IMG/VR virus record: IMGVR_UViG_3300042519_002058
Span: 1 to 39,534 of that record
Strand: one strand, 5' to 3'
Length of the DNA: 39,534 nucleotides
Origin: a virus
The translations under genes were made by a program, and so were the position numbers. A model generated the notes under the pieces. The model was not told the DNA's origin. It did no database searches and saw only the letters and a program-made list of their open reading frames with translations. This document shows positions 41-20,040 of the stretch, piece after piece; position 1 is the first letter of the stretch; each line of letters begins with the position of its first letter.

Positions 41-616
41 ATGAAAAGATCACAACTAGTAAAGTTAATAAAAGAAGAAATTAACATACAGGATAACGGA
101 CCAGAAGAAGCACAGTTTGATACAGAGTTAATGTCAACTGCTAACGGTATTGCAGCAGCTATAGGTACAGAATTAAAGAATAAAAAACAACAGAACGAAG
201 GTCAGTTAGATGAAGCAATTGTAGCAACTGTAATTGTAGGAGTTTTAACAGGAAATGCACTTATAGGGTTTATTTCTAAAATGGCTGCTAGACTGTTAAA
301 GAAACTTAACTGGAAAAAAGGAGAAGACTTTGCAGAAAAAATACACCACTGGGCACATGATAATGAAAAAGCTTTTCAATCTCCAATTAAAAGAGTGTTA
401 GGGTTTTTTATAAAAGATCCAAATACATTAGAAACAACAACTAAAGCTATCTATGCAATTGTTATTGCAAGTATGGCAGCAGGATATGGAGCAGAAGCAG
501 TAAGCGGATTATCAAAAGCAGATTGGTTTCAAGGAGCATTATCTTCTTTAAAAACAGTAGCCAAAGCAGATGAAGCAATACTAAATGCATACCCAGCAAT
601 TAAATCAATACTATAA
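41..616 (+). CDS. Tagged hypothetical protein with hydrophobic Gly/Ala helices
   Basis: 191 residues of unknown function. Residues 1-14 (MKRSQLVKLIKEEI) are the short basic amphipathic tag seen on many proteins here, resembling a T4 capsid-targeting sequence ending near an I-x-E site. About residues 58-88 form a hydrophobic segment containing VIVGVLTGNALIGF, and about 137-157 form a second one. The first segment, followed by a basic stretch and FAEKI, recalls in layout the Gly/Ala-rich repeats of the scaffold protein at 20041. Two membrane-seeking helices plus the tag suggest a head-packaged membrane-active protein, but a holin-like or plain structural protein is also possible. The gene looks complete; the next gene starts 11 bases downstream. 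Confidence 0.75.
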   Translation: MKRSQLVKLIKEEINIQDNGPEEAQFDTELMSTANGIAAAIGTELKNKKQQNEGQLDEAIVATVIVGVLTGNALIGFISKMAARLLKKLNWKKGEDFAEKIHHWAHDNEKAFQSPIKRVLGFFIKDPNTLETTTKAIYAIVIASMAAGYGAEAVSGLSKADWFQGALSSLKTVAKADEAILNAYPAIKSIL

Positions 617-626
617 AACATATATA

Positions 627-1061
627 ATGAAAAAATCTGAATTAAAAAGAATTATTCAAGAAGAATTAAAAGGGTATTCAAAGTATGCTCCAGAAGGAGA
701 AACTAAAGGAGGTACTACAGATGACTTTAGAAACATCTTAACAACAATTGCTAAAAGTGTTCCTAAAGAAGATTCAGAAGAGAAAACTGTTTCTGAAAAT
801 TCAATAAACTTTAATGAAGAAGAGATTAAAGCACAATTTCCTGATCTAGATCTTAGCTACGGTTTTAAAGGAGAAAATATGCATGAAATTAGATCAATAA
901 GAAAACGAAATCTAACAAAAGAGGAGTTTGAAAGTATAATTTCATTTTTAGAAGATAGAGGATATACTGTTTTGCGTAATAAATCTACTATGGATCTTGA
1001 TGATGATGGTGACAGGTGGTACTACCCTTCTATCATATTTACAGCACCTACTGAAGCTTAA
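627..1061 (+). CDS. Tagged hypothetical protein, 144 aa
   Basis: Function unknown. I place the start at the ATG at 627, giving MKKSELKRIIQEELKGYSK, because this matches the recurring tag exactly at its N-terminus. A longer frame from 585 would overlap the preceding gene and add 14 unrelated residues. After the tag comes a polar low-complexity linker (about 20-60). A compact C-terminal region (about 65-140) follows, with predicted helix-strand character (KEEFESIISFLEDRGYTVL, then an acidic DLDDDGD turn). The tag suggests packaging in the prohead core and possible trimming after I-I-Q-E by the gp21-like protease. The C-terminal domain was not recognised. Confidence 0.75.
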   Translation: MKKSELKRIIQEELKGYSKYAPEGETKGGTTDDFRNILTTIAKSVPKEDSEEKTVSENSINFNEEEIKAQFPDLDLSYGFKGENMHEIRSIRKRNLTKEEFESIISFLEDRGYTVLRNKSTMDLDDDGDRWYYPSIIFTAPTEA

Positions 1062-1067
1062 AAAACG

Positions 1068-1511
1068 GTGATTAGTATTTATAAGATATTAAAAGAGGTA
1101 ATTACGCCCTCTCAAGAGTACCAAGAACTTGTTAACAATATTGTTGATGAAGGAGGAGAGTATTTAGGAGAAGGAGATTATGGAGCAGTATTCTTAGTAG
1201 GAAATAAAGTAAAAAAAGTAACTACTGATTCAGAAGAATTGGAAGATGCACAACAAATAAAAGGACAAAAAACTAAATACTTTGTATACATATACGATGT
1301 AGAAGTTAGAAATCCAAAACTAGGAATCATCACAATGGATAATCTAGAACCTTTTACAGGGTCTGAGAAAGATGTTCCAATTGATGATATAATGGAAGAA
1401 GCAGAAATGCTAGGAATATATCCGGACTTAGAAGGACCAGGAGGTTCAATTAAAATGGATAACCTAATGCAAGATAGGTATTACGGTAATATAAAGGTAA
1501 TAGACGTATAA
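1068..1511 (+). CDS. Minimal protein-kinase-like protein (GTG start)
   Basis: 147 residues beginning at GTG (1068), six bases after the previous stop; no nearby ATG would keep the tag-like N-terminus MISIYKILKEVI. Residues 33-41 (LGEGDYGAV) fit the glycine-rich loop of protein kinases, followed by a beta-strand with lysines 49-50. Residues 87-96 (IITMDNLEPF) look like a kinase hinge. Near the C-terminus MDNLMQ (130-135) and IKVIDV (142-147) resemble the metal-binding Asn and the DFG Asp of phage and aminoglycoside-type kinases. The protein ends at that point, so the rest of the C-lobe is missing. It may be a pseudokinase or a very reduced kinase. The fold call rests on motifs only. Confidence 0.55.
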   Translation: MISIYKILKEVITPSQEYQELVNNIVDEGGEYLGEGDYGAVFLVGNKVKKVTTDSEELEDAQQIKGQKTKYFVYIYDVEVRNPKLGIITMDNLEPFTGSEKDVPIDDIMEEAEMLGIYPDLEGPGGSIKMDNLMQDRYYGNIKVIDV

Positions 1512-1525
1512 AATAATTAAAGAAA

Positions 1526-1549
1526 GGCTTGTTTATTCAAGTCTTTTTT
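1526..1549 (+). terminator. Intrinsic terminator after the kinase-like gene
   Basis: A six-pair stem (GGCTTG at 1526-1531 with CAAGTC at 1538-1543, one G-T wobble) is followed by a T run at 1543-1549. It lies between the 1511 stop and the primase start at 1584. The T run leads directly into TTCGTATCTTA, a near copy of the promoter-like element at 3330. Confidence 0.65.
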
Positions 1550-1583
1550 CGTATCTTAAGATGTCAATCGGTTATGTACATAT

Positions 1584-2504
1584 ATGAGTAGTAATATATT
1601 ATTAGGTTTTATAGAGAACGTTTTAGGAAAATCCCACAAAAGAGCTAGGGAGAACTATGCCTTTACCTGTCCAAAATGTAATCATCATAAGCCAAAGCTG
1701 GAAGTAAACCTGTATACTAATGAAAAAGGTGAGAATCCTTTCGAATGCTGGGTATGTGGCTTTAAAGGGCGTACAATTAAGTCTTTACTTAAACAACTAC
1801 AAGTACCTGCCGAACAAGCGTATGAAATACTTAAATACGTAAGAAAAGGTGATGAAATAGGGTATGCACCTACATCTTCCGTAGAACTTCCTAAAGAGTT
1901 TCAAGCTCTGTATACAGCATCAACCACATCTATTATAGCAAATAAAGTAAGGAAATACCTCTATAAAAGAGGATTTACCGATAGAGACTTCTTAAAATAC
2001 AACATAGGTTACTGTACTTCAGGAGAATACACAGGAAGAGTGATTGTTCCGTCATATAACGAGAACAACCAGTTAAACTTCTTTGTAGGTAGGACATTCG
2101 AAGATGCTTACCATAAATACAGAAATCCAGAGTGCTCTAAGGATATAATAGGGTTTGAGAACCTAATCAATTGGTCACAACCTATAATCCTGGTAGAAGG
2201 GGTATTTGATGCAATAGCAGTAAAAAGAAACGCAGTACCAATACTCGGTAAGTCTTTATCAAAATCTTTGATAAAAAAGATAGTATCAAGTCAGGTAGAA
2301 GATATATACGTAGCCCTAGACAGGGATGCATTTAAAAAAGCACTCTCATACACAGAACAGTTTCTGAATATGGGAAAGAAAGTATATCTAGTAGATATGC
2401 AAGATAAGGATCCAAGCGATATGGGCTTTGCAAGCTTCACTCGTTATGTACAACAGGCAGAGGAAATGGACTTCGGAAAGTTACTCCGCTACAAACTATC
2501 ATAA
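1584..2504 (+). CDS. DNA primase, DnaG/gp61 type
   Basis: 306 residues. It should synthesise RNA primers for lagging-strand replication alongside a phage helicase. The N-terminus has a CHC2-like zinc-binding region: C29-x2-C32, His34/35, then C55-x2-C58 (FECWVCGFKG). A TOPRIM domain occupies the C-terminal half: ILVEGVFDA around Glu206, the acidic pair in ALDRDA (Asp247, Asp249), and KDPSD at 276-280. It is about the size of T4 gp61 (342 aa) and has no fused helicase domain. It follows an intrinsic terminator and shares a tight junction with the nuclease downstream (next ATG at 2506, one base after the stop), suggesting a replication operon. Assignment is strong; the T4 gene number is by analogy. 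Confidence 0.9.
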   Translation: MSSNILLGFIENVLGKSHKRARENYAFTCPKCNHHKPKLEVNLYTNEKGENPFECWVCGFKGRTIKSLLKQLQVPAEQAYEILKYVRKGDEIGYAPTSSVELPKEFQALYTASTTSIIANKVRKYLYKRGFTDRDFLKYNIGYCTSGEYTGRVIVPSYNENNQLNFFVGRTFEDAYHKYRNPECSKDIIGFENLINWSQPIILVEGVFDAIAVKRNAVPILGKSLSKSLIKKIVSSQVEDIYVALDRDAFKKALSYTEQFLNMGKKVYLVDMQDKDPSDMGFASFTRYVQQAEEMDFGKLLRYKLS

Positions 2505-2505
2505 T

Positions 2506-3288: not shown

Positions 3289-3290
3289 TA

Positions 3291-3300
3291 CTATTTATTT
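3291..3300 (+). promoter_or_regulatory. CTATTTAT promoter-like element
   Basis: CTATTTATTT lies just after the nuclease stop. The same octamer CTATTTAT recurs at 8163, 9925, 12523, 15100, 16982 and 24799, always between genes. Here it is 58 nt from the next ATG, so the element at 3330 may be the closer promoter. Confidence 0.4.
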
Positions 3301-3329
3301 AATATAATCGTTGGATAATCGAAAGAATA

Positions 3330-3341
3330 TTCGTATATTTA
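3330..3341 (+). promoter_or_regulatory. TTCGTATATTTA promoter-like element
   Basis: The exact 12-mer TTCGTATATTTA ends 17 nt before the ATG at 3359. Identical copies lie at 23142 and 24066, each in a gap before a new gene cluster. The TATATTTA core is one base from the Bacteroidota TAnnTTTG -7 consensus. No transcription data support it. Confidence 0.5.
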
Positions 3342-3358: not shown

Positions 3359-4267
3359 ATGGGAGGAAACGTATTCGATAGTACAGCACCGATAAAAAAA
3401 GAGCATATTAAACCAACTCTATTAGAGTTCTTTAAGCAGTTCAAAACTATATTTCCAAAAGCAGAACCATTCTTTAGAGAGATGAAAACTCTAGGATCTG
3501 TAGGGAAAAAAGATTACTCAGGGGATATTGACCTAGCACTTGCCGGGTCATCCTTTGATAATGTAGAGGATTGGGGTCTAGATGAGAAACACGTTCAAGA
3601 CCTATTTGTAGGGTTTAAGAAAAGAGCTAGAACATCTTCTGATGATCAGCTAATGAAAAGAGCTGTAATTGTAGCAATAGCACAAAAGATAGCAGAAGCA
3701 GATACAGAGATTATAGCAGATGTAAAAGGATCTTCTGCAGGAGCTTTATTTCTTCTATTTCCTCAATACGATGAGAATAACGAAGTAGTAGGACAAAACG
3801 TTCAAATAGATGTAAATGTAGGAGATGTAGATTGGTTACAATTTGCATACCACTCAGCCACTTACTCAGGAAACGTAAAAGGGTTACATAGAACACAATT
3901 ACTTGTATCTTTATTCTCTCAGAAAGGATATACATTCTCTCACAATTATGGAGTAAAGGAGAAAGAATCACAAGAGATTGTAGCAAACACACCACAACAA
4001 GCAATAGACCTTCTAAATAAGTCATATGGCTTAAATTTAGATAGAGATACAATAGGAGATTATTTTAAATTGATAGAAGTACTAGAAGCAGGACTATCCC
4101 CACAGGATTTAAACGCTGTATATGATACTTATCTTAAGATATTAGATAGCACTAGAGCAGATATACCAGAAGATCTACAGGCTTATTGGATAAAAAATCA
4201 AGAAAGATTAGGGTTAAAAGGTAAATTCTTACCGGATAATTCAAATTTAACACAATATAAAGTATAA
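3359..4267 (+). CDS. Pol-beta-superfamily nucleotidyltransferase-like protein
   Basis: 302 residues. The signature of the nucleotidyltransferase fold is present: TLGSVGKKDYSGDIDLAL, with Gly46-Ser47 followed by Asp56-x-Asp58. A third carboxylate candidate is Asp151 in QIDVNVGD. Such enzymes move NMP from NTP to RNA, protein, sugar or antibiotic substrates; the substrate here is unknown. The C-terminal half (about 160-302) is mainly helical. The next gene begins one base after the stop and carries a second nucleotidyltransferase domain, so the two may work as a pair or derive from duplication. No clear N-terminal tag is seen, but LLEFFKQF could be a variant. CCA-adding or poly(A) polymerase function is less likely because their extra motifs are absent. 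Confidence 0.75.
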   Translation: MGGNVFDSTAPIKKEHIKPTLLEFFKQFKTIFPKAEPFFREMKTLGSVGKKDYSGDIDLALAGSSFDNVEDWGLDEKHVQDLFVGFKKRARTSSDDQLMKRAVIVAIAQKIAEADTEIIADVKGSSAGALFLLFPQYDENNEVVGQNVQIDVNVGDVDWLQFAYHSATYSGNVKGLHRTQLLVSLFSQKGYTFSHNYGVKEKESQEIVANTPQQAIDLLNKSYGLNLDRDTIGDYFKLIEVLEAGLSPQDLNAVYDTYLKILDSTRADIPEDLQAYWIKNQERLGLKGKFLPDNSNLTQYKV

Positions 4268-4268: not shown

Positions 4269-6989
4269 ATGTCAGGAGTAGCAGGAGGAAATAGAATAGA
4301 AAGAGGGGATGTACATAATACATTCAACAAATACGTAGAAGAAGTTCTAAGTAAAGTACCAGGCTTCAAGAAAGCTTCTCTATCTGGATCTGTAAAAGCA
4401 GGAACAAAAGCTGACTTTGGAGACTTAGATATTATTGTTTGGTTTGAAGGAGATGATAAGAGAGAGGTTAAACAAAGACTTATCGATGCAGCTCTAGCTC
4501 TTCCACAAAACATAATTGTACCTTTTAAATCAGAAAAATATACCGGAAGAAGGTATTATAACTCAGGTGAACTAATCTCAGTACTCTATCCAATTGTAGG
4601 AAAGGAAGATCAATATATTCAGGTTGATAATATTATATCTCTTACAGAAGAAGAACATGCCTTTAAAGGATCATTCTTAGACCTACCAGCTGAAAAGCAA
4701 GGACTGTTAATAGGGCTAGCAAAAGTAATTTTACTTGAGCAAGACCCACAAGATGTATTCAGAAGAATGGGTATTTCAAATGTACCTAATCTAGAAAAAG
4801 GTGAAGAGTTTGAATTTAACCTATCATCGGTAAAACTATCTTTAAGAAAAGTAAAACTAGAAAACTTTAGAGAAATAGCAAGAGAAGAGGTATGGTCAAC
4901 AACAGCTTGGGGTACTATTAAGATACTATTTAAAGGATTTAATATAGACGGTTCTTTCGAAGACCTATTAGATGATGTTGCTAAAAAACTTACAAATGCT
5001 AGATCTAAAAATAGAATAGCAGGTATTTTTAAATCAATGGTATCTGTTAAATCAGGAGAAGTTGGAACAGCTAAAGGAAAAGGTAAAGAAGATGCATTAG
5101 AAAAAGTAGCACAAACACTTGCAGAAGCATTGGATGATGGATCCGAAGTAGTAGCTTTATATGCTGGAGGATTCAAACCACCACACCTTGCTCACTTTGA
5201 AAATGCCAAATTTCTATCTACTAAAGCAGACAAAATTGTAATATTTATCGGACCTAAGATCAGAGAAGGTGTAAAAATTACAGCAGAACAATCAAAAGCT
5301 ATTTGGGAAATCTATGCAAAATACATAAACGTACCAATGGAGATTGTAATCAGTAAAGTAACTCCAATATTAGATACATATGAATGGATTGATGCAAATC
5401 AAGACAAAGTAACAAGCATTATTACAGGAGCTATGGCTGATGAAATGGGTAAATTCTCTGGAATAGAAAAGAGAAAAGAAAAAGGTGAGTATAAGAATGT
5501 AGAAGTAAAAGAACTACCTGTTATTACAAATAAAGAAGACGATAAATTCTCAGCAACTGATATTAGAAAGTCAGAAAAGTTCTTATTAGAAGGCAAATGG
5601 ATGCCAAAAGTAGTATCAAAAGAAGATAAGCAAGCAATCCTAGATATTATAACTCCTCAAAAAGAAGATTCAGTAGAAGATAAAATGCTAACTGCAGTAG
5701 ATAACGTATTTGAAAGTTTCTTTCCAAAGAAAACTAAAAAAGAAGTAATACAAGAAGGGTCAGCAGGAACACCTATACAGCCATCAGGAGCTATTCCATC
5801 AAAGGATAGAGAAAACTTAATACACCTCTTTAGCCAACTAAAATCAACTATTAATTCAGAAAAGTATACAGTAGTATTTGAGCAAGATAGAATAGGAGTA
5901 TACATAAAAACGTATGCAGATGTAAGCTTTGACCAAACACCTCAACAAAAAACACTACCAGAAGGAGCAGAGCAAGAAAAATTCGACTACACACCTTACA
6001 TAGGATCTCTTTTAGAGTATATGTTAGATGAGAAGATGAATATTACACCGTTACCGGAAGTAAAAATCAGATATGACGAAGAACAAGCAAACGACTTCTT
6101 CGGTAAAACAGCTTACTATGATCCAAATAAGCAAGAAGTAGTATTATATGTAATGAATAGACATCCAAAAGATGTCTGTAGATCATTCTCTCATGAAATG
6201 ATTCACCATATGCAAAATATGGAAGGAAGACTTGAAGGATTAGCAGCTACTACTAATACAAATGAAGACGATTACTTACAGGAAATAGAAAAAGAAGCTT
6301 ACCTAAAGGGTAATATTACATTTAGAAACTGGGAAGACGGATTAAAAAGTAATAAAGAGGTTATGGCAGAAGGAAGATACGATAAAATTAGTAATCAAGC
6401 ATCATCAGACTTGTTTAGAGGCTGGAAAGAAGCATTTAATGCAGGAGAAAAGAGTATAGGATTTGAAGAAACTTATTCAAATGGTGATGTAGAATTCGAC
6501 GTAGAAGGTACTTTAGTACTAACACCAGGAACCGGTAAAATGGAAGTCTTAGAAAGTACAGGAGCAGGCTTTGACGAAGATGGAGATTTTATTATAGTAG
6601 ATATCGCTATTGATCCAGAACTATTACCAGGCTTTTGGGAAGAGATTTCAATGACTTTAAAAGATCTTTTCAGACATGAAATTGAACACCTAACACATAA
6701 TAAAGGAGGAGTATCTACAAATCCTTCTAAAATAATGAGAGGTGATTTAGCAAAAAGAGATAAGATAAGAGCAGGAGAAAAGCCAATAGGAGATTATTTT
6801 AAACTTAAAAAAGAAATAGATGCAAACCTACAGGGAATGTATTTTAGAGCTAAAAAAGAAAAAAGACCATTTGCAGATGTTGTAAATAGTTACTTAGATG
6901 CTCAAGATATTACACCTCAAGAAAGAGAGGAAATACTTACATTATGGCGTAACAGACTTCCTGCATTAGGATTAAAACAAACATTATAA
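4269..6989 (+). CDS. Multidomain nucleotidyltransferase / NMNAT-like / double metalloprotease polyprotein
   Basis: 906 residues with four domains in order. (1) A Pol-beta-type nucleotidyltransferase: Gly40-Ser41, GDLDIIV with Asp52/Asp54, and Asp120 in YIQVDN. (2) A cytidylyltransferase/NMN-adenylyltransferase-like Rossmann domain from about 293: GGFKPPHLAHF at 300-310 is a HxxH nucleotide-binding motif and FSATDIR at 427-433 is the equivalent of ISSTxIR. (3) A zinc metallopeptidase-like domain: SHEMIHH at 641-647, with EIEKEAY near 672 as likely third ligand. (4) A second one: RHEIEHLTH at 802-810, with KEIDA near 848. Junctions carry (L/I/V)-x-x-E-G or tag-like sequences, such as KKEVIQEG at 490-497, TLAEALDDG near 285 and EVMAEGRYD near 697. 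These could be prohead-protease sites. The domains may be separated on maturation and delivered with the DNA. No frameshift is seen. Confidence 0.8.
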   Translation: MSGVAGGNRIERGDVHNTFNKYVEEVLSKVPGFKKASLSGSVKAGTKADFGDLDIIVWFEGDDKREVKQRLIDAALALPQNIIVPFKSEKYTGRRYYNSGELISVLYPIVGKEDQYIQVDNIISLTEEEHAFKGSFLDLPAEKQGLLIGLAKVILLEQDPQDVFRRMGISNVPNLEKGEEFEFNLSSVKLSLRKVKLENFREIAREEVWSTTAWGTIKILFKGFNIDGSFEDLLDDVAKKLTNARSKNRIAGIFKSMVSVKSGEVGTAKGKGKEDALEKVAQTLAEALDDGSEVVALYAGGFKPPHLAHFENAKFLSTKADKIVIFIGPKIREGVKITAEQSKAIWEIYAKYINVPMEIVISKVTPILDTYEWIDANQDKVTSIITGAMADEMGKFSGIEKRKEKGEYKNVEVKELPVITNKEDDKFSATDIRKSEKFLLEGKWMPKVVSKEDKQAILDIITPQKEDSVEDKMLTAVDNVFESFFPKKTKKEVIQEGSAGTPIQPSGAIPSKDRENLIHLFSQLKSTINSEKYTVVFEQDRIGVYIKTYADVSFDQTPQQKTLPEGAEQEKFDYTPYIGSLLEYMLDEKMNITPLPEVKIRYDEEQANDFFGKTAYYDPNKQEVVLYVMNRHPKDVCRSFSHEMIHHMQNMEGRLEGLAATTNTNEDDYLQEIEKEAYLKGNITFRNWEDGLKSNKEVMAEGRYDKISNQASSDLFRGWKEAFNAGEKSIGFEETYSNGDVEFDVEGTLVLTPGTGKMEVLESTGAGFDEDGDFIIVDIAIDPELLPGFWEEISMTLKDLFRHEIEHLTHNKGGVSTNPSKIMRGDLAKRDKIRAGEKPIGDYFKLKKEIDANLQGMYFRAKKEKRPFADVVNSYLDAQDITPQEREEILTLWRNRLPALGLKQTL

Positions 6990-7002: not shown

Positions 7003-7590
7003 ATGGGAAAATTAGCAGACTTATTACTAGAAGAATCAGACTTCATGCCTAAATATCAGATATATTGTGATATGGATGGAGTATTAACAGACTTTGAAAA
7101 GAGATTTGTTACATTATTACAACAAGAAGGTCCAAAGTACTATTCAAAAGCGACAATTGCTCAAGTAACAAGGCCTAAACACTTTGATAAACTAGAAGGA
7201 ACAGAAGAGTTTTGGAAGTTTATTGATCAGTATATTGGATTAGAGTTCTGGTCAGAAATGGAATGGATGCCAAATGGTAGAGAGTTATGGAACTTTATAC
7301 AACCATACGGACCAAAACTTTTAACATCTCCTTCCAGAGACAATACCTCAAGACTTGGTAAAAGATTATGGGTAAAAGAAAACCTAGTACCTGCCCCTGA
7401 AGTCTTATTTAGGTTTGGAGATGCTAAGTCGGATTTTGCAAATGAAAATGCTATATTAATAGACGATAAGCCTTCCAACCTCGCTGCATTTTCTGCTAAA
7501 GGAGGAATAGCAATAGAGGTAAAAGACGGAGAAATACAATCGGTTATTAATAAATTAAAACAACTTGGTTATGGGCGAGAGCTTACTTAA
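7003..7590 (+). CDS. HAD-superfamily 5'-nucleotidase-like phosphatase, tagged
   Basis: 195 residues. HAD motifs are complete: DMDGVLTDF with the nucleophile Asp23 and acid Asp25, the motif II threonine in LLTSPS (Thr108), and AILIDDKPSN with the metal-binding Asp154-Asp155. The arrangement resembles 5'(3')-deoxyribonucleotidases (NT5C family), which release phosphate from nucleoside monophosphates. The catalytic domain starts at about residue 16; the first 14 residues (MGKLADLLLEESDF) are an extra tag-like helix ending in L-L-E-E, suggesting head packaging and trimming. In the cell it could adjust nucleotide pools or act on host nucleotides after injection. The last 20 bases overlap the next gene. 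Confidence 0.8.
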   Translation: MGKLADLLLEESDFMPKYQIYCDMDGVLTDFEKRFVTLLQQEGPKYYSKATIAQVTRPKHFDKLEGTEEFWKFIDQYIGLEFWSEMEWMPNGRELWNFIQPYGPKLLTSPSRDNTSRLGKRLWVKENLVPAPEVLFRFGDAKSDFANENAILIDDKPSNLAAFSAKGGIAIEVKDGEIQSVINKLKQLGYGRELT

Positions 7591-8197: not shown

Positions 8198-8335
8198 ATG
8201 GCAAAAGCAGCACAATCTTCCGTTAAAATAGAGAGACCTAAAGTATCTAGACCTGGAGTTCATGCAAAATCTAAAACTTCAAAATTGAAGAGTTCTAAGA
8301 ACTATAAAAAACTTTACAATGGACAAGGGAAGTAG
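8198..8335 (+). CDS. Small basic conserved phage protein, 45 aa
   Basis: A 46-codon frame (ATG 8198, TAG 8333) encodes a very basic peptide: MAKAAQSSVKIERPKVSRPG, then VHAKSKTSKLKSSKNYKKLYNGQGK. It follows a CTATTTAT element by 27 nt and overlaps the next ORF by 17 bases in another frame. I recall similar short Lys/Ser-rich ORFs (RPGVHAK... NYKK..GQG) in other T4-like aquatic phages, which supports its being real; that recollection is not a search result. Charge suggests binding to DNA or to acidic scaffold, but function is unknown. Confidence 0.65.
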   Translation: MAKAAQSSVKIERPKVSRPGVHAKSKTSKLKSSKNYKKLYNGQGK

Positions 8336-8558
8336 TAAAAAATTAAAACAATTACTACAAGAAGCAGATAACCCTCAAGCAGGTAAAGCAGCACCTTATG
8401 GTTCAGGATATGCAAAGGTAAAACAAGCAATTCATGAACTTGTAAAAGAAGTTCTTTCAGAAAAAGTAAAAGGCGTTGACGGTAAAGCTTGTTGGAAGGG
8501 ATACAGGTATGCTGGTACTAAAGATGGAAAAGACATCTGTGTAAAAATTACAAAATAA
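8319..8558 (+). CDS. Small tagged protein with KACWKGYRYAGT motif
   Basis: 79 residues. Two tag-like helices are present, SSKKLKQLLQEAD (about 5-17) and AIHELVKEVLSEK (about 37-49), each ending at an L-x-E site. They would leave a short C-terminal module, GVDGKACWKGYRYAGTKDG plus KDICVKITK, with two cysteines that could pair. This C-terminal pattern looks like a recurrent small module in marine phage proteins, from memory. The start overlaps the 45-residue gene by 17 bases and the next gene begins one base after the stop. Function unknown; the tags suggest a packaged internal peptide. Confidence 0.65.
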   Translation: MDKGSSKKLKQLLQEADNPQAGKAAPYGSGYAKVKQAIHELVKEVLSEKVKGVDGKACWKGYRYAGTKDGKDICVKITK

Positions 8559-8559: not shown

Positions 8560-8874
8560 ATGAAGCTACTACAACTATTAAAAGAAGCAAAAGAGGTATT
8601 AGAAGACTTCGCTAAAACCAGAGGAGAAGGTGCAGCTAAAATAGCATCAAATGCTCAAGAAAAAGGAGGACTTGCTTTGCTAACCTGGCATCATTTCAAA
8701 GTAAAAGCTCCGTATTATAAAAAAGCTTCTGAAGGAAAGCTTGATATGGAACAAGCAAAGAAAGAGTACGAAGAGACTTATAAAAAGATCTCTCTAGATA
8801 TGACTCAAATTGAATTTCAAAGAGAGGTAGGAAGACTAGAAGTACTAGGAGAATTGCTAATAAAGAATAAATAA
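8560..8874 (+). CDS. Small helical hypothetical protein, tagged
   Basis: 104 residues. The N-terminus MKLLQLLKEAKEVLEDF is tag-like, with L-L-K-E and V-L-E-D sites. It is followed by a Gly/Ala-rich segment (GEGAAKIASNAQEKGGLALL), a TWHHFKVKAPYYKKA stretch and a long charged C-terminal helix (about 62-104). A pair of histidines sits in TWHHFKVK, but no zinc motif is formed. The stop overlaps the next start (TAATG). No function can be assigned; context suggests an internal head protein. Confidence 0.65.
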   Translation: MKLLQLLKEAKEVLEDFAKTRGEGAAKIASNAQEKGGLALLTWHHFKVKAPYYKKASEGKLDMEQAKKEYEETYKKISLDMTQIEFQREVGRLEVLGELLIKNK

Positions 8875-9518
8875 TGTCAACACTAAATACATCTATACCT
8901 CACTTCTATGCTAAGATGAGAATAGAACACCTCTACCAGCATGACGGGAGAGAAGGTATGCAAGATGTAATAGTATTTGGAGCACAATCTGTAGGAGGTA
9001 GAGCTCTTACCTTCCATATAATGACTGATGAAGGAGCTGTTAGATCAAGAGTTCCAATTCATATGCTTGCCTGGAAAGATGATGCACCAAAAATGGCTTT
9101 AGACCATTTACAACTATGGGATTGTTTTGGACATGAAGTATCATGTACAGCATACGATTACTTACTCCAATCAAGAGTAAAGGCAATATTTAAAGACGGT
9201 AGTAAAGAGTGGGGAAATTATATTATGACCTTTGATTGGTTTAATAATCCATATTCTAACGAACCAACACAATACAAGGCAGCACATCTAATTAAATTAG
9301 ATAACGGAAATTTTACTCTTCAGCCTAATAATAGATTAATGTGGAGAGATATGTCTTTTGTAACTCAACCATTTCCTGAAAAACCGGATTGGATGATTGA
9401 TAATAAAGAGTGGTTTTGCGAATCAGTTTCCGATAAATGGACAATGGAAAAAGGTAATGAAAATATTTACTACTACACTTTAGAAAATGAAAAAAAGTCA
9501 ACTAAAAAAGATAATTAA
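8874..9518 (+). CDS. Conserved phage protein of unknown function, 214 aa
   Basis: A globular-looking protein of mixed strands and helices, without membrane segments or tag. Aromatic- and His-rich stretches include IPHFYAKMRIEHLYQHDG, VPIHMLAWKDD and DHLQLWDCFGHEVSC. A later block reads ETPTQ-like strands around NGNFTLQPNNRLMWRDMSF. The order resembles a protein I recall as frequent beside head genes in aquatic T4-like phages, but its activity is not known to me. It overlaps the upstream stop by one base and the downstream tagged gene by 32 bases, so the three are probably translated together. The C-terminus is lysine-rich (NEKKSTKKDN). Confidence 0.7.
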   Translation: MSTLNTSIPHFYAKMRIEHLYQHDGREGMQDVIVFGAQSVGGRALTFHIMTDEGAVRSRVPIHMLAWKDDAPKMALDHLQLWDCFGHEVSCTAYDYLLQSRVKAIFKDGSKEWGNYIMTFDWFNNPYSNEPTQYKAAHLIKLDNGNFTLQPNNRLMWRDMSFVTQPFPEKPDWMIDNKEWFCESVSDKWTMEKGNENIYYYTLENEKKSTKKDN

Positions 9519-9915
9519 AGAGGTATTAGATGCTTCAACACCTGCTCCTAGTGAAATACCGGGAGGACTAGCACAGTTTGCTACTATTGGAGATTTAGCT
9601 ACAATGCATAATCTTCCTTTAGATCAAATCATAAAGCAGATAGTAAAAGGAGTAAAGACAGAATCAGAACATACAACAGATTTAGATATTGCTATGGAAA
9701 TAGCTTTTGACCATGTATATGAAGATCCTAAATATTACGATAAATTATCCAACATAGAAGAAGGTAAACATGACCCAGTAGAACCGGGTATTTTAAAAAA
9801 AAGGTTAGGTAAACTTACCTGTTCAAAAGTAAGAGCAGAAAGAAGTAAATTAGAAGACAAGGGTACTCATTATGCAAAAGCATTGCAGAGATACTTAAAT
9901 TACCATTGTCAGTAA
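9487..9915 (+). CDS. Tagged DUF5661-like protein
   Basis: 142 residues. Residues 1-17 (MKKSQLKKIIKEVLDAS) are the clearest form of the recurring tag. The middle region, KGVKTESEHTTDLDIAMEIA then FDHVYEDPKYYDKL, matches my recollection of the DUF5661 pattern (E-H-T, A-x-x-I-A, D-H, E-D-P-x-Y-Y), a family of unknown function. The C-terminus is a basic module, GILKKRLGKLTCSKVRAERS followed by YAKALQRYLNYHC, with two cysteines. The gene starts inside the preceding gene (32-base overlap), and the tag falls in the overlap. A prohead-packaged, possibly DNA-binding protein is the best reading. Confidence 0.75.
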   Translation: MKKSQLKKIIKEVLDASTPAPSEIPGGLAQFATIGDLATMHNLPLDQIIKQIVKGVKTESEHTTDLDIAMEIAFDHVYEDPKYYDKLSNIEEGKHDPVEPGILKKRLGKLTCSKVRAERSKLEDKGTHYAKALQRYLNYHCQ

Positions 9916-9974: not shown

Positions 9975-11537
9975 ATGAAGAAATTAGTAAGAATAGTAGA
10001 AGCAGGAGAAAAGACAGCATTTATCCAAACAGCTAGAGGAGAAAAGAAGACGATCGAATATAAAAAAGACGATGAACTTACAGGTTTGAAAGATAATCAG
10101 GATATTGCAAAAATTGATACTGCAGATGGTAAGAGAATAAAAGAAGAAGTACGAAAATATACTGCTCAAGAATCAGCAGCTGTAGGAAAAGCAGTAGCTA
10201 AATCTCTTGTAAAAGTTCTTAGAGCTCAAGGAGATGAAATCTCAAAACTAAGACTTACAGGAATAGGAGTTGATAGATTTAATATCCACGTTGAATATGG
10301 AAATGAAAAAGGAGTAGATACTTTTAAATTTGACCTAAACCCACAAGGTACTGCTATCATATTAGACTTAGGAAACGAACCATTAGAGCTAGTAGACTTC
10401 GTGATAACACAAGGTAATACTGTTTCTCTACCTACTCCTGAGTTAGAAGATAAACTAGGTGATGCAATGAAAAAGTATGTGGGAGAACCTACAGATGCTG
10501 AATATGATAATATGGCAGCAATGCAAGAGCCGACAGATCCTTCTCAATTTGCAAAAGAATTAAACGAAGATGATTGGAAACAATCAGACGACGAATCTAC
10601 AATGGCAAAAGCACAGTTAAAATCTATTCAATCCAATGCAAGTAAGTTGATGAATATAATAGGAGATAACGAGCAATTAGATGCATGGGTTCAAGCCAAG
10701 CTAACAAAAGCAGAAGATTATTTAGACTCAGCAGCAGGATACCTAGAATCAGAAGAAGATGAAGAGGGTCATCAACCTGTAGCACTTGCAATAGCTTTAA
10801 ATGAAAAGAAAGCTACATATTGCGGAAGATGTGGACATACCCATGTTAAGGGTACACCTTGTCCAAGACCTTTTAAAAATGAAGCATTAGATGCAGTTGG
10901 AAAAGAGGATGACGATATTAATAATGATGGAAAAGTCGATAAGACTGATAAATACTTAAAAAACAGAAGAAATACTATCTCTAAAAAGATAACTAAAGAA
11001 GAACTGAGAGAATTAATGCTTGAAGCATATATCGAAGTTCTTAAAGAAGAAGAAGGAGCAGTATTAGAGACATCTACAGATGAAATACTAGGAAAATTTC
11101 CTACAGTAAAGAAAGCAATAACATCTCTATTTACAAAAGAATATCCAGAATTTGTAACAGATATAAGATGGGTAGCACCAAAACCTTCCACATTTGCAGT
11201 TGATCTTAAAAACGGTCAATCATTTAACTTAAAATGGATGGGTAAAGGATTTGAAGCACAAATAGAAGGTAAAAAATACTACTTAGATACTTTACAAGAC
11301 TATCAACAAGCTTTAGATAAGATAAACGATATACTTAAGAACGGACCAATCACACAAGGTGAAGAACCAGGTGGAGAAGAATTCGGAGCAGATCCAGCAG
11401 CACCAGCAGGTGGAGGAGGAGGAGATTTTCCAGGTGGAGAAGCTGGAGGAGAGCCAGCAGCTGAATTTGGAGCAGAAGAAGCACCAGCAGGGGAAGAAGA
11501 AGCAGGAGCAGAACCAGAAACACCAGAAGCACTTTAA
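9975..11537 (+). CDS. Composite internal head protein with zinc and EF-hand-like modules
   Basis: 520 residues that look like small modules joined end to end. The N-terminus [14 protein letters not shown] is tag-like (I-V-E-A). A mixed domain follows (about 50-190). Residues 208-249 are a helical module ([20 protein letters not shown], then [20 protein letters not shown]). A zinc-ribbon-like knuckle lies at 282-300 (C283, C286, H288/H290, C296). An EF-hand/dockerin-like loop lies at 312-326 ([15 protein letters not shown]). A second tag-like helix is at 336-358 ([20 protein letters not shown]). A small alpha/beta domain spans about 365-455, and the last 60 residues are a Gly/Ala/Glu tail. The stop overlaps the next start (TAATG). 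A prohead-core component or packaged polyprotein is inferred; no enzyme motif is seen. Confidence 0.75.
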
Positions 11538-12548: not shown

Positions 12549-13439
12549 ATGGCAGATAATTTCAACTTAAGAACATTCTTAACAGAGAATAAACTTACTA
12601 AAAATGCACAGCTTCTTTCAGAAGGAATAGAGTTTAACGGTAAACCGGTAAACGTTGGATCGGTAGAAATCGATGGAATAGATACAGAAGATTACCCAGA
12701 CTTTGTAGATGCATATATTGCAGCAGCAGAATACGAAGACGGTACTCCATTAACAGACGAAGAATTAGTACAGTTTCAAGAAGAAAATTACGATTTAGTA
12801 AGCCAAATGATTCACGATGATCAGCTATACTTAGAAGCAAAGAAAGAAGATGGTATGGAAGAAGCATCTAGCGAGGATATGGCTTATACTGAAAAAGTTG
12901 ACGAAGCTTTAGCAGAAAGTAAATTAACTGCTAAAGAAAGACGTTTAGTAGAAATGGTTCAAAATGCTTTAGGAGAAGAAAATGTAGATTATACAATGGG
13001 ACGTCAAGACGATCCAAATCAACTACCAAACCCAGCACCAGAACTTAACATACCAGAAGGAGAAGCTAATATAGAAGAAGCAAAACCTCTTCCAAAATAT
13101 GAATCAATTGAAGAATTGATGAAAGAGATTGAACACGGTACTAACGAAGCAGCTCACAAATACAAAATGGATGAGATGAAAAGAGTTTACGAGGCTTTAG
13201 AGGCTAAAGTAGGGTCTTTAGAAGAAGGAGAGCATGCTGAGCATATCGATCAAAAAGCTGTTAAGCAAATGCGTAAAGATATTGCAACATTAAGAAAAGC
13301 AGAAGAGAAATTAAGAAAAGAATTTGATAAAAAATTCTCAGGTAAAGAAAAGAAAGAAACTCCAGCTAAAGAAAAAGCAGTAGAAGCTTTACAAGAAGGA
13401 TTCAACTTAAGAAAATTCTTAGCAGAAAACAGAAAATAA
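12549..13439 (+). CDS. Acidic coiled-coil head-core-like protein with tags at both ends
   Basis: 296 residues, acidic and mostly helical, with a long charged helix at about 185-270 (DQKAVKQMRKDIATLRKAEE and following). The N-terminus has NFNLRTFLTEN (4-14), then NAQLLSEG; the C-terminus ends in EGFNLRKFLAENRK. The near-identical FNLR-x-FL-x-EN motif at both ends is encoded by a 30-base direct repeat. Both ends carry L-x-E sites, so the ends could be removed by the gp21-like protease. Its size and character fit a prohead core or assembly protein, as in T4 gp68/IP-type proteins; no enzyme motif is present. It sits just before an intrinsic terminator and the terminase gene. Confidence 0.7.
   Translation: MADNFNLRTFLTENKLTKNAQLLSEGIEFNGKPVNVGSVEIDGIDTEDYPDFVDAYIAAAEYEDGTPLTDEELVQFQEENYDLVSQMIHDDQLYLEAKKEDGMEEASSEDMAYTEKVDEALAESKLTAKERRLVEMVQNALGEENVDYTMGRQDDPNQLPNPAPELNIPEGEANIEEAKPLPKYESIEELMKEIEHGTNEAAHKYKMDEMKRVYEALEAKVGSLEEGEHAEHIDQKAVKQMRKDIATLRKAEEKLRKEFDKKFSGKEKKETPAKEKAVEALQEGFNLRKFLAENRK
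12561..12590 (+). repeat. 30-bp direct repeat, copy 1
   Basis: Starts TTCAACTTAAGAACATTCTT and matches 26 of 30 bases at 13401-13430. It encodes FNLRTFLTEN at the N-terminus of the 296-residue protein. Confidence 0.75.
13401..13430 (+). repeat. 30-bp direct repeat, copy 2
   Basis: Starts TTCAACTTAAGAAAATTCTT, in the same reading frame as copy 1, and encodes FNLRKFLAEN at the C-terminus of the same protein. Four mismatches to copy 1; three leave the protein motif conservative or unchanged. Confidence 0.75.
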
Positions 13440-16978: not shown

Positions 16979-16981
16979 GCA

Positions 16982-16990
16982 CTATTTATA
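16982..16990 (+). promoter_or_regulatory. CTATTTATA promoter-like element
   Basis: CTATTTATA begins three bases after the portal stop and ends 17 nt before the ATG at 17008. Confidence 0.55.
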
Positions 16991-17007
16991 ACAAAGACAT
17001 ACCTAAG

Positions 17008-17862
17008 ATGCGTATTAAACACAGTAAGTATAAAAACACAGGCTTAATATTTGAACTATTAGTAAAGCAAATAGCAGCGGATACCTTATCTAAAAGAGAT
17101 TCCCCGGCATTGACAGTACTAAGAAAATTTTATACAGGAAACACAACACTAGTAAGAGAGTTTAAATTATACGATTTTGTACTAAAAAATAAAGGCATTG
17201 GCCCTAAAAAAGCAGAATCAATACTAAGCACCATTGTAGAGATTTCTAGAAAACTAGATGCAAAATCTCTTAGTAAGCAAAAATATGAGCTTATAAAAGA
17301 ACTTAAGAGTCATTACGATTTAGAGGAGTTCTTTTCTATTAAGGTAGAAGCATATAAGCCTCTAGCAGCTTTATATTGTTTAATGGAAGCACAAAATGCA
17401 GCAGAACTTGTAGACCTAGATGTATTTGTTGACAATAAAACTACAATACTTGAGCACTTAACTCAAAGTAAAACAGCAGCCGGTCAAGTAAAAAATGCTT
17501 TAATTGAAGAGTATTCTAAATATGATAAAGATTTAAGACTTTTAACATATAAAATATTACTAGAGAAATTTAATCACCAATATAAAGATTTACTTCCAGA
17601 ACAGAAAAACATCTTGAAGGAATTTATAGTATCAGTTAACTCTTCTACAAGACTAAGAAACGTAGTAAATGAAGAAATGACTAAATTACAAGTAGAGATT
17701 TCTAAATTAAAAAAGAATATTACTGATAAAGTAGTAAAAATTAAATTAGAAGAGATTCAAAAAGTAATTATTCCTATAAAAAATACACAAAAAGTAGATG
17801 ATAATCATTTAGTTTCATTAATGCAGTACTATGAATTAGTAAATGAATTAAGAAATCTATGA
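17008..17862 (+). CDS. Conserved head-operon protein of unknown function, 284 aa
   Basis: A highly helical, Lys/Leu-rich protein. The start MRIKHSKYKNTGLIFELLVK (1-20) is a pattern I recall downstream of portal genes in aquatic T4-like phages. The middle is a series of helices (KKAESILSTIVEISRKL and KQKYELIKELKSHYDLEEFF) and the C-terminus contains a coiled-coil-like stretch (about 225-270, EEMTKLQVEISKLKKNITDK). No enzyme or membrane motif is seen. The last codons overlap the next start (ATGA). Being between portal and protease, it may be a head assembly or chaperone-like factor; this is positional inference only. Confidence 0.7.
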   Translation: MRIKHSKYKNTGLIFELLVKQIAADTLSKRDSPALTVLRKFYTGNTTLVREFKLYDFVLKNKGIGPKKAESILSTIVEISRKLDAKSLSKQKYELIKELKSHYDLEEFFSIKVEAYKPLAALYCLMEAQNAAELVDLDVFVDNKTTILEHLTQSKTAAGQVKNALIEEYSKYDKDLRLLTYKILLEKFNHQYKDLLPEQKNILKEFIVSVNSSTRLRNVVNEEMTKLQVEISKLKKNITDKVVKIKLEEIQKVIIPIKNTQKVDDNHLVSLMQYYELVNELRNL

Positions 17863-18080
17863 AAAGATCAGAAGTACTAAAAGCAATACAGGAAGTATTG
17901 GCAGAAATGTCAACAACAGCAGGTATGGCAGTACCATCAACTCCATTTGCTTTTTCTAAAAAAGGACAAGGTAAAAATACAGCTACTAAAACAGCTGAAA
18001 AATTAGGTTATAAAACAGTTGAAAGACCTAAACGTCCTTCACACACAAAAATGTTTGATTACTTAGACGAAAATAAATAA
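17859..18080 (+). CDS. Small tagged prohead-core-like protein, 73 aa
   Basis: Residues 1-17 (MKRSEVLKAIQEVLAEM) are the recurring tag, ending with I-Q-E and L-A-E sites. The remainder is basic and Pro/Thr-rich: TTAGMAVPSTPFAFSKKGQG followed by TATKTAEKLGYKTVERPK. It overlaps the upstream stop by four bases and lies one base from the next gene. In T4, small prohead core proteins gp67 and gp68 lie between gp20 and gp21, so position and tag suggest an analogous core protein that is cleaved on maturation. No sequence similarity to those is claimed. Confidence 0.7.
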   Translation: MKRSEVLKAIQEVLAEMSTTAGMAVPSTPFAFSKKGQGKNTATKTAEKLGYKTVERPKRPSHTKMFDYLDENK

Positions 18081-18081
18081 T

Positions 18082-19059
18082 ATGAGAACTTTACAAGAAA
18101 AATATAACGGAATTCAAGAGGGAAAATTCTCTAAAGAACATTTCTTAGCTGAAGCTAGAATGCAACTTCCAAACTTAATAACTCGTTTCAATGGATACGA
18201 TGATGCTGTTCAGATTTTAAAGAACAGAGGAATGATTCAGGAAGCTAGAGTAGAAGAAGCTAGACTTACTAAAAACAATCTAACAGATTACAGATTCAAA
18301 CCAACTAACGAAATGGATAAGTATCCATACGAACAGATTCTTAGAGGAATCAGAGTTGAGTTAGAGGTAGCAGGGGTTCTTGGAACACCAACAGCAGAAG
18401 AATATTCAAAAGCATTAGTAAAAGTATCTAAAAACTTAGCAAAAGATTCTATATTCTATACAAACCAGTTAGCAGGAGTTAATCCAAAAGTGGATCTTCA
18501 TGATAAAATGGTACCTGTAACAGCAAAAAACACTGTAGATGTTTTTAACGGTATGAAAAAAGCTGAATTAAAAGAAGGCTTTAAAAAACTAATTAAAAAA
18601 GTATTATCTGAAGAGGTAATGGATGTTGAAAGCTATAAAGAAGACGAAGTATACGAAATGTACGGAGAAGATGAAGCAGATGACATTCCACATCCAAGAG
18701 GATACGAAGACCAAGACGAAATCGACTACGATGACGAAAACTTCTCAGATCCTTTCATTGATGACCCAGATTTTCAATTTGAATCAACAGATACTGAAGC
18801 TGACAAAGATATGGTTCGTAAATTAATGACCATGTACGAAACAGAGCCTTCTAAATTTGAAAAATTACACAAGCAAGCACAAACTCAAGCATCTACTTCT
18901 AAAGATATTAAATTTAAACATTTATTATCTCTAATTGATAGAGCTAAAGCAGGAGCTTTACAGAGTTTATCTAATCAAGATAAAGCACAAGCTGATAGTG
19001 AAGGAATGGATGAAGATCTTTACAAAGGAAAAAAATCGTTATCTGAATTATTAAAATAA
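18082..19059 (+). CDS. Prohead core-like protein with multiple tag-like segments
   Basis: 325 residues. The N-terminus MRTLQEKYNGIQEGKFSKEH, then FLAEARMQLPNLITRFNGYD, is rich in I-Q-E, F-L-A-E and M-I-Q-E sites. A compact segment (about 60-165, YPYEQILRGIRVELEVAGVL) is followed by a further tag (LKEGFKKLIKKVLSEEVMD, about 163-181). Next come an acidic low-complexity block (about 185-240, Asp/Glu-rich) and a helical C-terminus ending in KKSLSELLK. Acid-rich helical proteins beside the protease are typical of prohead core constituents. It may correspond in role to T4 gp68 or internal proteins. No catalytic motif is present. Confidence 0.7.
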   Translation: MRTLQEKYNGIQEGKFSKEHFLAEARMQLPNLITRFNGYDDAVQILKNRGMIQEARVEEARLTKNNLTDYRFKPTNEMDKYPYEQILRGIRVELEVAGVLGTPTAEEYSKALVKVSKNLAKDSIFYTNQLAGVNPKVDLHDKMVPVTAKNTVDVFNGMKKAELKEGFKKLIKKVLSEEVMDVESYKEDEVYEMYGEDEADDIPHPRGYEDQDEIDYDDENFSDPFIDDPDFQFESTDTEADKDMVRKLMTMYETEPSKFEKLHKQAQTQASTSKDIKFKHLLSLIDRAKAGALQSLSNQDKAQADSEGMDEDLYKGKKSLSELLK

Positions 19060-19064
19060 GAAAG

Positions 19065-19643
19065 ATGAACAATTTATTAGTAAATGTAACTCCTTTCAAA
19101 GGAATGCTTACCGAATCAAAGGCTAAACCCGGAGTATTCGAAGTAACAGGCATTATGCAGAGAGCAGGAGCTAAGAATCAAAACGGAAGAATCTACAAAA
19201 GAGAAATTCTTGAAGAAGAAGTAAAAAATTATGTAGAGAATTTTGTTAAGATAGGAAATGCATACGGAGAATTAGATCATCCAGAATCAGCAATTGTCTC
19301 TTTAAAAAACGCATCACACGTTGTAAAAGACTTATGGTGGGATGGAGATGACTTGATGGGTAAAGTTGAATTACTAAATACACCCTCAGGAAATATCGTA
19401 AAAGAAATATTAAGAGGAGGACATACAATTGGAATCTCTTCAAGAGGAACAGGATCAGTATCACAAACCAATGAAGGAACTTTAATGGTACAGGATGATT
19501 TTGAATTAGTATGTTGGGATTTCGTTTCTAATCCATCAACACAAGGAGCTTTTATGAATCCAATTTCACTAAACGAAGGAAAACAATCAGTAGGAAAATA
19601 CGATAGATTAGATTCTATTATTAACAATATATTAAGAGCATAA
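19065..19643 (+). CDS. Prohead maturation protease (gp21-like, family S77)
   Basis: 192 residues. The protease cuts scaffold, capsid and internal proteins inside the prohead, in T4 after (L/I)-x-E. The family pattern is complete: GELDHPES with His72, ASHVVKDLWWDGDDLMGKVE, GISSRGTGS with Ser125/Ser126, and FELVCWDFVSNPSTQGAF with Asp152. It is close in size to T4 gp21 (212 aa). Its own N-terminus (FKGMLTESK) and C-terminus (ISLNEGKQ) carry candidate self-cleavage sites. It overlaps the next gene at TAATG. This enzyme is the key to the tag hypothesis, since its specificity would decide which tagged proteins are trimmed. Confidence 0.93.
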   Translation: MNNLLVNVTPFKGMLTESKAKPGVFEVTGIMQRAGAKNQNGRIYKREILEEEVKNYVENFVKIGNAYGELDHPESAIVSLKNASHVVKDLWWDGDDLMGKVELLNTPSGNIVKEILRGGHTIGISSRGTGSVSQTNEGTLMVQDDFELVCWDFVSNPSTQGAFMNPISLNEGKQSVGKYDRLDSIINNILRA

Positions 19644-19882
19644 TGGAAAATAATTTCGACATACACAATTGGCAAGCTAAACACTTGACAAAATTACTAA
19701 AAGAAAATACAGTGCAAGAAGGAGGAGGATACGTAGAAGTGATGGGACCTCGTTTTGATGAAGCAATAGAAGCAATACAATTAGCTTGGGAAGAATGGAA
19801 AAACGGACCTATGACAGAGCCAGAAGATATTCCTCAAGCAAAGCAAGACATATTAGACTACATAGTAAGTCTTTTAAAATAA
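19643..19882 (+). CDS. Small conserved head-operon protein, 79 aa
   Basis: Two parts are visible. The N-terminus (about 1-29: NNFDIHNWQAKHLTKLLKEN, then TVQEGGGYVEV) is tag-like with L-K-E and V-Q-E-G sites. The C-terminal module (about 34-79: GPRFDEAIEAIQLAWEEWKN, then GPMTEPEDIPQAKQDILDYI) is a compact helical motif I recall as common in aquatic phage proteins. It starts inside the protease stop (TAATG) and ends just before a strong terminator. It is probably a core or internal head protein; function is not known. Confidence 0.7.
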   Translation: MENNFDIHNWQAKHLTKLLKENTVQEGGGYVEVMGPRFDEAIEAIQLAWEEWKNGPMTEPEDIPQAKQDILDYIVSLLK

Positions 19883-19890
19883 AAACACAG

Positions 19891-19915
19891 CCCACCCCAT
19901 AAAGGTGGGTTTTTT
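19891..19915 (+). terminator. Intrinsic terminator before the scaffold gene
   Basis: CCCACC (19891-19896) and GGTGGG (19904-19909) form a six-pair GC-rich stem with a seven-base loop, followed by six T. It ends the unit containing portal to protease and separates it from the scaffold-capsid unit. Confidence 0.85.
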
Positions 19916-19932
19916 ATGTTTTAAAAATATAT

Positions 19933-20040
19933 GTATATTTATTTAAGAATATATCACGATCCTTATGTGATATCTACTACAAAGTAAAACATTATTACGC
20001 TACTACTTAATAAGCGTACGACAAACAAACACAAATTAAA
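19933..20040 (+). promoter_or_regulatory. Structured leader of the scaffold-capsid unit
   Basis: The gap before the scaffold ATG holds a GTATATTTAT element (19933-19942) that could be the promoter. Two short inverted repeats follow: ATATCAC/GTGATAT (19951-19957 and 19967-19973) and TACGCT/AGCGTA (19996-20001 and 20013-20018). Then comes an A-rich run up to the start at 20041. With the promoter at 19933 the leader would be about 90 nt, much longer than elsewhere here. The hairpins may stabilise an abundant mRNA or bind a regulator. Confidence 0.45.

Follow-up and report, generated by a model that had tools for sequence, protein, structure and literature searches.

Interchangeable N-terminal leaders as candidate prohead-core addresses in an immuto-like phage

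Why should proteins that share nothing else begin with the same few residues, in a virus that also encodes a T4 gp21-type prohead protease? The question is raised by a virus fragment of 39,534 bases, IMGVR_UViG_3300042519_002058, taken over its whole length (hereafter the window; the leaders, motif copies, protease and scaffold candidate placed in it below lie on the + strand). A first-pass annotation made from the letters alone had proposed that at least eight of its genes carry one kind of short basic amphipathic N-terminal helix ending near (L/I)xE, comparable to the capsid-targeting sequences of T4. We find at least three distinct motifs, here called A, B and C, and perhaps a fourth, D. 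We consider it likely, at a rough probability of three in four, that these are prohead-core targeting leaders cut by the gp21-type protease. The leaders would recruit otherwise unrelated proteins into the prohead core, and as the head matures the protease would cut at the leader’s (I/L)xE and set the body free within the head; such bodies might then be released into the next host and function there.

The first 25 kb of the window match Flavobacterium phage immuto (NC_055915; host Flavobacterium sp. LMO8) at 88.3% identity over 83% of the query, and the counterpart region in immuto is annotated with a terminase, a gp20 portal, a prohead protease, a gene in the scaffold position and a major capsid protein. 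Motif discovery compared all 14-residue windows of the 239 annotated immuto proteins, without a prior motif. Three segments recur among the top-ranking matches of proteins that are otherwise unrelated, with the consensus sequences MKKSxLxxIIKEEL (A), NFDLKKFLVENKLTxNSxL (B) and SEQFxRMQxLAGII (C). In leave-one-out scoring against a null of five shuffled proteomes of 239 proteins, A reaches 30-37 bits in 4 immuto proteins (shuffled maximum 14.7), B 33-48 bits in 4 (shuffled maximum 20.0) and C 30-38 bits in 3 (shuffled maximum 12.4). Relatives were sampled by a scan with the protease (best 80 of 231 relatives), by a scan with the protein encoded at 7003 (62 loci) and by a DNA pattern for MQxLAGI followed by a hydrophobic residue and xE, which returned at least 120 stretches, 80 of which were translated; these pattern loci were picked for motif C, so the counts of C against A and B are not abundances. 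Over 15,272 distinct open reading frames (ORFs) the profiles gave 145 A, 101 B and 147 C matches, and zero matches in three shuffles and in the reversed sequences of the same ORFs. The first-pass observation is partly borne out: shared starts do recur, but several motifs had been run together and some of the genes named fall outside them. A short-peptide tblastn of the A, B and C leaders against a phage collection returned four immuto records only, which may reflect short queries or few isolates.

Four genes of the window carry strong A leaders, scored with the four window strings left out of a profile that had been seeded from them. These are MKRSQLVKLIKEEI (41..82; 39.2 bits, z 11.1) on the 191-residue protein 41-616, MKKSELKRIIQEEL (627..668; 37.2 bits, z 11.6), MKKSQLKKIIKEVL (9487..9528; 43.2 bits, z 11.9) on a DUF5661 protein (E 1.1e-11), and MKRSEVLKAIQEVL (17859..17900; 35.8 bits, z 9.9) on a 73-residue protein encoded between the portal and gp21 genes. 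The start at 627 is the second in-frame start of an ORF listed from 585 and agrees with the annotated start of the immuto counterpart 102880. Motif A is basic and amphipathic. Motif B, which is unrelated to it, is represented by MADNFNLRTFLTENKLT (12549..12599; 42.3 bits, z 13.4, from a profile that still contained the window string), and 36 B-tagged entries fall in the cluster of this protein. The small 17859-type protein has a motif A start in 47 distinct bodies of its cluster. An A profile built from the 17859 family alone exceeds the shuffle maximum in 92/95 other A bodies, and a B profile built from the 12549 family alone does so in 65/65 other B bodies; both tests used tagged ORFs already picked with the A, B and C profiles.

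Motif C (core RMQKLAGI) had escaped the earlier reading of the window. It stands there as SEQVSRWQKLAGII (21382..21423; 26.0 bits, z 7.6) at the C-terminus of the scaffold candidate (20041..21429), a protein in the gp22 position with conserved ends and a variable centre. Motif C was found at the scaffold C-terminus in 12/13 records scanned, and the tail was seen in 58/81 loci, the other 23 not having been inspected singly. The 80 translated loci contain 91 matches to the MQxLAGI-type pattern. The great majority (81) lie no more than 44 residues from the start of the open frame, where they precede very different sequences, and eight loci have two or three; a match at the start of a 745-residue ORF in L169 comes without the usual flank. 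The other 10/91 lie more than 44 residues in, and among them at least one (L158) is a scaffold tail, while the matches in L179 and L215 seem to be due to chance. Of the 120 loci listed for the pattern, 34 hold a head gene of the window or T4 type. Scaffold C-termini alone served to build a further profile. It gives every one of the 147 C-tagged ORFs at least 17.3 bits, where 3,000 shuffled ORFs reach 14.5 at most, the tagged ORFs here too having been picked with the A, B and C profiles; over all ORFs its matches are N-terminal on non-scaffold proteins in 148 cases, scaffold C-terminal in 48, C-terminal on other proteins in 15 and elsewhere in 10. Since the scaffold-tail profile recognises the C-tagged ORFs, cargo C and scaffold C are one motif, and C-tagged cargo would probably dock at the site where the scaffold tail docks.

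The hypervariable centre of the scaffold holds up to three tandem small modules, whose kinds differ between phages and which are often flanked by NE/LxE; L040, for example, has three copies of one module and immuto two of another. These modules are possibly exchangeable internal peptides. Comparison of the modules with the tagged proteins, by blastp or by an iterated profile of one module, gave no homology.

The protease itself is encoded at 19065..19643 (Pfam Peptidase_S77, E 2.5e-35; PHROG head maturation protease, E 5.9e-52), exactly where the first-pass annotation had placed it. The gene order is that of a T4-like head module, namely terminase, portal, gp21, scaffold and gp23-like capsid protein (by the immuto annotation, with gp21 identified by Pfam), and T4 gp21 and gp23 match related loci in tblastn. 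T4 gp21 is described as cutting after L/I-x-E in the sections of PMC9026906 cited here. An (I/L)xE occurs within the tag or the next 12 residues in 130/134 A, 95/95 B and 143/145 C strings, and the conservation of Glu is 97% in A strings, 100% in B and 96% in C, figures to be read in the light of profiles that themselves reward Glu and of a DNA pattern, used to gather part of C, that required it. In immuto, (I/L)xE lies within residues 6-18 of 20/30 head-module proteins vs 31/209 others (p 8e-9), where shuffled head N-termini would give 4.6, with module limits set post hoc. These leader sites would be putative gp21 cut sites. A second conserved LxE site, GQLDE (200..214), ends at Glu58 of protein 41, before its hydrophobic part. 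Glu58 is invariant in 17/17 aligned sequences of the family, whatever their leader, at 16-92% identity between the window protein and the other rows; two residues before it stand I or L (14 sequences), V (2) or A (1). An alignment of the window capsid protein to T4 gp23 places the Glu of IVSE opposite Glu65 of T4, the residue at which the 65-residue gp23 propeptide ends according to a section of PMC5694885.

The likeliest alternative, which we still regard as unlikely, is that the tagged proteins serve in core assembly, are broken down together with the core and then depart from the head, rather than being delivered cargo. The fragments of T4 gp22, gp67 and gp68 mostly leave the head (PMC9026906, in the part consulted), and the 17859 family and the scaffold are themselves probably core proteins. 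Weighing the other way is the sheer variety of the tagged bodies, which fall into up to 177 families, mostly without recognised domains, and look like accessory cargo. The families are single-linkage clusters, some of which combine different modules, while distant relatives may have ended up in separate ones. Of the 177, 15 with bodies under 70 residues, 3 that had no usable locus and 2 not listed for length were left out beforehand, and 150 of the remaining 157 representatives were scanned against Pfam and PHROGs. GNAT acetyltransferase models matched 2 of them in Pfam and other models one member each; PHROGs matched 12 families, one member each, four of them labelled acetyltransferase. The claim that enzymes are among the tagged proteins therefore survives weakly, through the two GNAT matches: the NT5C-like protein at 7003 carries no A, B, C or D leader by profile, and neither does the product of 4269, annotated NadR in its immuto counterpart.

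The leader idea is strengthened by the swapping of leaders from one related body to another. Clustering of the bodies free of their tags gave 105 families with C only, 38 with B only, 26 with A only and 8 mixed, and on inspection 6 of the 8 are swaps. The family of protein 41 carries A in the window, immuto, G009, G013 and L269, B in G002, G008, G016 and L284, and C in L203 and L207; the window protein and its B-led relative in L284 are identical at 116/169 residues (z 89.6), and a scan with a C-tagged member of the family found 2 loci only. The five further swap families are all B/C, with body alignments (z 19-82) that begin 0-35 residues past the tag. Examples are L061 vs L218 (82/109 identical) and L217 vs L162 (116/155), and the weakest has 26/68 identical (z 19). 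The remaining two mixed families were downgraded, one because its match is domain-level and lies behind an internal B copy, the other because it has A and C in one ORF and a B match at domain level. Since related bodies can stand behind A in one phage and behind B or C in another, the leaders resemble addresses that can be exchanged for one another.

Rearrangements agree with the swaps. In G003, G006 and G010 the domain that follows the internal A-like segment of the 9975 protein forms an ORF of its own and has an A leader at its N-terminus. The domain behind a B-like start at window position 19643 (immuto 125241) resembles part of an A-tagged G002 protein (49% over 47 residues, E 1.9e-11; for immuto 125241 the figure is 43%, over about 50 residues). 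In G004 two B-tagged modules are joined in one ORF (36303, 543 residues). We also observed that the bodies of 8319 and 9487 are fused in G005 (69539), with the A leader replaced by an ITE-containing junction, and that L153, L199 and L270 have a C leader at the ORF start and an A motif further in, as though two addresses followed one another.

The swaps bear directly on a second alternative, that the tags are merely the conserved N-terminal parts of paralogous families which arose by duplication and diverged elsewhere, with no targeting role. Some clustering is compatible with it (five B-tagged genes lie within about 4.5 kb in G009), and the codons of B are slightly less diverse than expected (0.36 vs 0.46). 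We find it quite improbable, as divergence behind one leader does not yield related bodies behind sequence-unrelated leaders in different phages, and motif C is N-terminal on cargo and C-terminal on the scaffold.

The A-, B- or C-tagged proteins of immuto are the ten encoded at 1803, 25061, 102294, 102880, 103806, 111675, 113188, 117631, 118632 and 123355. Of these, 8/10 are encoded in the head module (p 9e-7), taken as 102294-126896, limits that were fixed after the tags had been seen and so favour the enrichment tests. This location and the (I/L)xE enrichment point to the core, and with it away from a third explanation, in which the leaders, as amphipathic basic helices, bind the host membrane or another host site. 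Motif A has the right character for that role, proheads of T4 come off the membrane when they mature (PMC9026906, in the part consulted), and one A-like start lies beside baseplate genes; yet B and C, which differ from A in character, replace it on related bodies, and C is also the scaffold tail, which leaves membrane binding very doubtful. That the leaders are a nucleotide-level signal, a translation start or recombination site that incidentally encodes a conserved peptide, is scarcely credible: they are A-rich and lie at gene starts, but same-residue codon pairs in the tags differ at 0.43 (A), 0.36 (B) and 0.50 (C) where the bodies predict 0.47, 0.46 and 0.47, and C also occurs at a C-terminus and A and B internally. 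As synonymous codons show roughly the variation predicted, selection acts on the peptide.

Several observations weigh against prohead-core targeting. Two of the tagged genes in immuto, 1803 and 25061, are remote from the head module. A fifth A-like start in immuto, on the protein at 81525, scores 19.2 bits (shuffled maximum 14.7) and adjoins an annotated baseplate gene, and its family member at 3992 in G011 reaches 28.9 bits; counting 81525, the share in the head module becomes 8/11. From this baseplate-side start it would seem either that A does not address proteins to the head alone or that 81525 is also cargo; together with the post hoc module limits it slightly lowers our confidence. Three of the eight genes first noted, with starts at 1068, 7003 and 9975, have no A, B, C or D profile support, though there is an (I/L)xE in each. 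An AlphaFold model of the 41 family is poor, all helical with a mean pLDDT (the model’s own per-residue confidence score) of 47, and was not used. Within T4 bases 5001-168903 nothing reached 14 bits with the A, B or C profile, and no T4 internal protein ranks in the top 12 scorers. Virion proteomics of the immuto group was not found in the open-access literature, so that packaging and cleavage are argued here from sequence.

Two observations in immuto stand beside these. The conserved protein 81525 opens with the amphipathic A-like start MKLDLLKKLIKEAV, and its G011 relative with MKINQLRKIIKEEV. A TATTTATAATAAA-like element lies upstream of many structural genes of NC_055915. The string TATTTATAAA, with at most one mismatch, precedes 17/53 structural genes vs 9/149 others, and also 2/4 tagged or tag-like genes outside the head module (25061 and 60009; p 0.026, for a motif picked from many), which is no more than suggestive of a late promoter.

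The remaining segments of the window are weaker. The first-pass annotation had listed internal or terminal copies at 8319, 9975, 12549, 18082 and 19643; all of these, like the starts it cited, exist at the coordinates given, and they differ widely in strength, the one at 12549 being the strong B leader described above. The internal A-like segment of protein 9975-11537 (10986..11030) is weak, its immuto counterpart scoring 12.6 bits, below the shuffled maximum of 14.7 and so within chance by score. A second one, MKKAELKEGFKKLI (18553..18594) in 18082-19059, is also weak, with 16.0 bits in the immuto counterpart and relatives against the same maximum. The start at 19643 is a degenerate B-like MENNFDIHNWQAKHLTKLLKEN (19643..19708), below the profile threshold. 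A truncated B copy, FNLRKFLAEN (13401..13430), lies at the C-terminus of the protein 12549-13439; in some of its relatives the internal B copy is complete and a second module comes after it.

Motif D is held weakly. Its profile was derived from the N-terminus of the major capsid protein, MELNQLFEGA (21456..21485), and this profile also picked minus-strand ORFs, which is why we hold it so. By this profile the start at 8560, one of the eight originally listed, is a D leader, MKLLQLLKEA (8560..8589; 13.7 bits, z 4.3, null maximum 9.5); scored as A it is weak (14.3 bits, z 4.8). A D-like segment, KKLKQLLQEA (8337..8366; 7.9 bits, z 5.1), lies in the protein 8319-8558, and MKLLQLLKEA starts the 8319-type body in L279 and L292. 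An N-terminus of the MKLxxIIxE(N/S)DE type in the 41 family (L065-L081) resembles the capsid-protein start and was rejected, having failed the capsid-derived profile. The NT5C-like protein begins with MGKLADLLLEES (7003..7038), which has an LxE and no profile score above z 4, so that it is not an A, B, C or D tag; in relatives this start is exchanged for others, many of them LLxE-like.

How far does this resemble systems already described? The closest is that of T4, whose IpI-III and Alt share with the immuto group a short N-terminal leader on unrelated bodies, an L/I-x-E site and an S77-type protease. Sections of PMC9026906 report that the first 10 residues of IPIII are needed for incorporation and that T4 internal proteins copurify with gp22, and already raise the idea that T4-like phages may be able to take up various proteins by means of the T4 leader. 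Parts of PMC12373910 report at least 10 internal proteins (Ips) in related phages, with a characteristic N-terminal signal, and no mutual homology of Ip1-3 beyond the leader. Unlike T4, the phages considered here have several interchangeable leaders, many more bodies, one leader that matches the C-terminal tail of the scaffold, and, in immuto, tagged genes that lie mostly inside the head module. The scaffold follows T4 gp22 in its gene order (gp21, scaffold, capsid protein), and T4 gp22 is described as cut into fragments by gp21 (PMC9026906, in part); it differs from gp22 in ending in a tag-like motif and in its variable centre with tandem modules of different kinds. By A, B or C profile there is no similarity to the T4 leader MKTYQEFIAEA, although a simple comparison of N-termini finds the IpII/IpIII leader of T4 as its top pair. 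Outside T4 the profiles were run on three 40-kb stretches: nothing reached 14 bits in those of a marine T4-like virus and Lak-A1, and that of a cyanophage gave two marginal matches. The original comparison with T4 thus holds for shared leaders, (I/L)xE and protease and fails for the leader itself: the system looks like T4 capsid targeting by function, while sequence comparison does not establish that the two are one family.

Two other phages offer parallels. In P1, the first 30 residues of DarB suffice to bring a reporter into the head, as a section of PMC9024508 reports, and the targeting sequence is described there for one 250-kDa protein. In SPN3US and its relatives, N-terminal propeptides are removed by a gp21-related protease and likely direct proteins to the head; several are longer than 100 residues, and the sections of PMC5694885 consulted name one paralogue pair, gp53/gp54, with identical first 15 residues, and do not mention leader swapping. 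Among open-access articles containing the phrase capsid targeting sequence, a search whose scope leaves most subscription papers outside, none concerned Bacteroidota phages by title. Against this background the shared leaders look larger in scale and more modular than the T4 trick.

What the bodies might do is a matter of analogy. Immuto carries, at 18607-37015 of NC_055915, genes annotated QueC, QueD, QueE, FolE, QueF-type and DpdA, which suggest 7-deazaguanine modification of its DNA, and T4 Ip1-Ip3 block Type IV GmrSD restriction enzymes (PMC12373910, in part). From these two points an anti-restriction role for the tagged bodies is a fair guess and no more. Neither protein 41 nor the 4269 protein gave a sequence match to solved structures (for the latter at E 0.01). 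Elsewhere in the window, 4269-6989 encodes a 906-residue protein with two HExxH-like stretches; 10914-10970 has an EF-hand-like loop in a region matching several PHROGs, one labelled cytidyltransferase; and 30589-35574 encodes a very long protein with many collagen-like repeats.

We tentatively propose, as a scheme that may well prove wrong in part or whole, that each address derives from the docking segment of a core protein: C from the scaffold tail, D from the capsid N-terminus, A from the 17859 protein and B from the 12549 protein. Accessory genes would gain and exchange addresses, some would fuse into multi-tag proteins separable by gp21, the scaffold would itself carry exchangeable peptide cassettes, and the packaged and injected repertoires would turn over rapidly.

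If the leaders are indeed prohead-core addresses, short sequence signatures would predict which phage genes without an assigned function are packaged in the head and delivered to the host, and more than 100 body families would become candidate early host-takeover or anti-defence proteins of aquatic immuto-like phages. The docking site in the prohead would be directly testable, and there would be new leaders for loading proteins into phage heads. Capsid targeting would then rely on several addresses able to evolve, of which the scaffold shares at least one, rather than on the one conserved peptide of T4.

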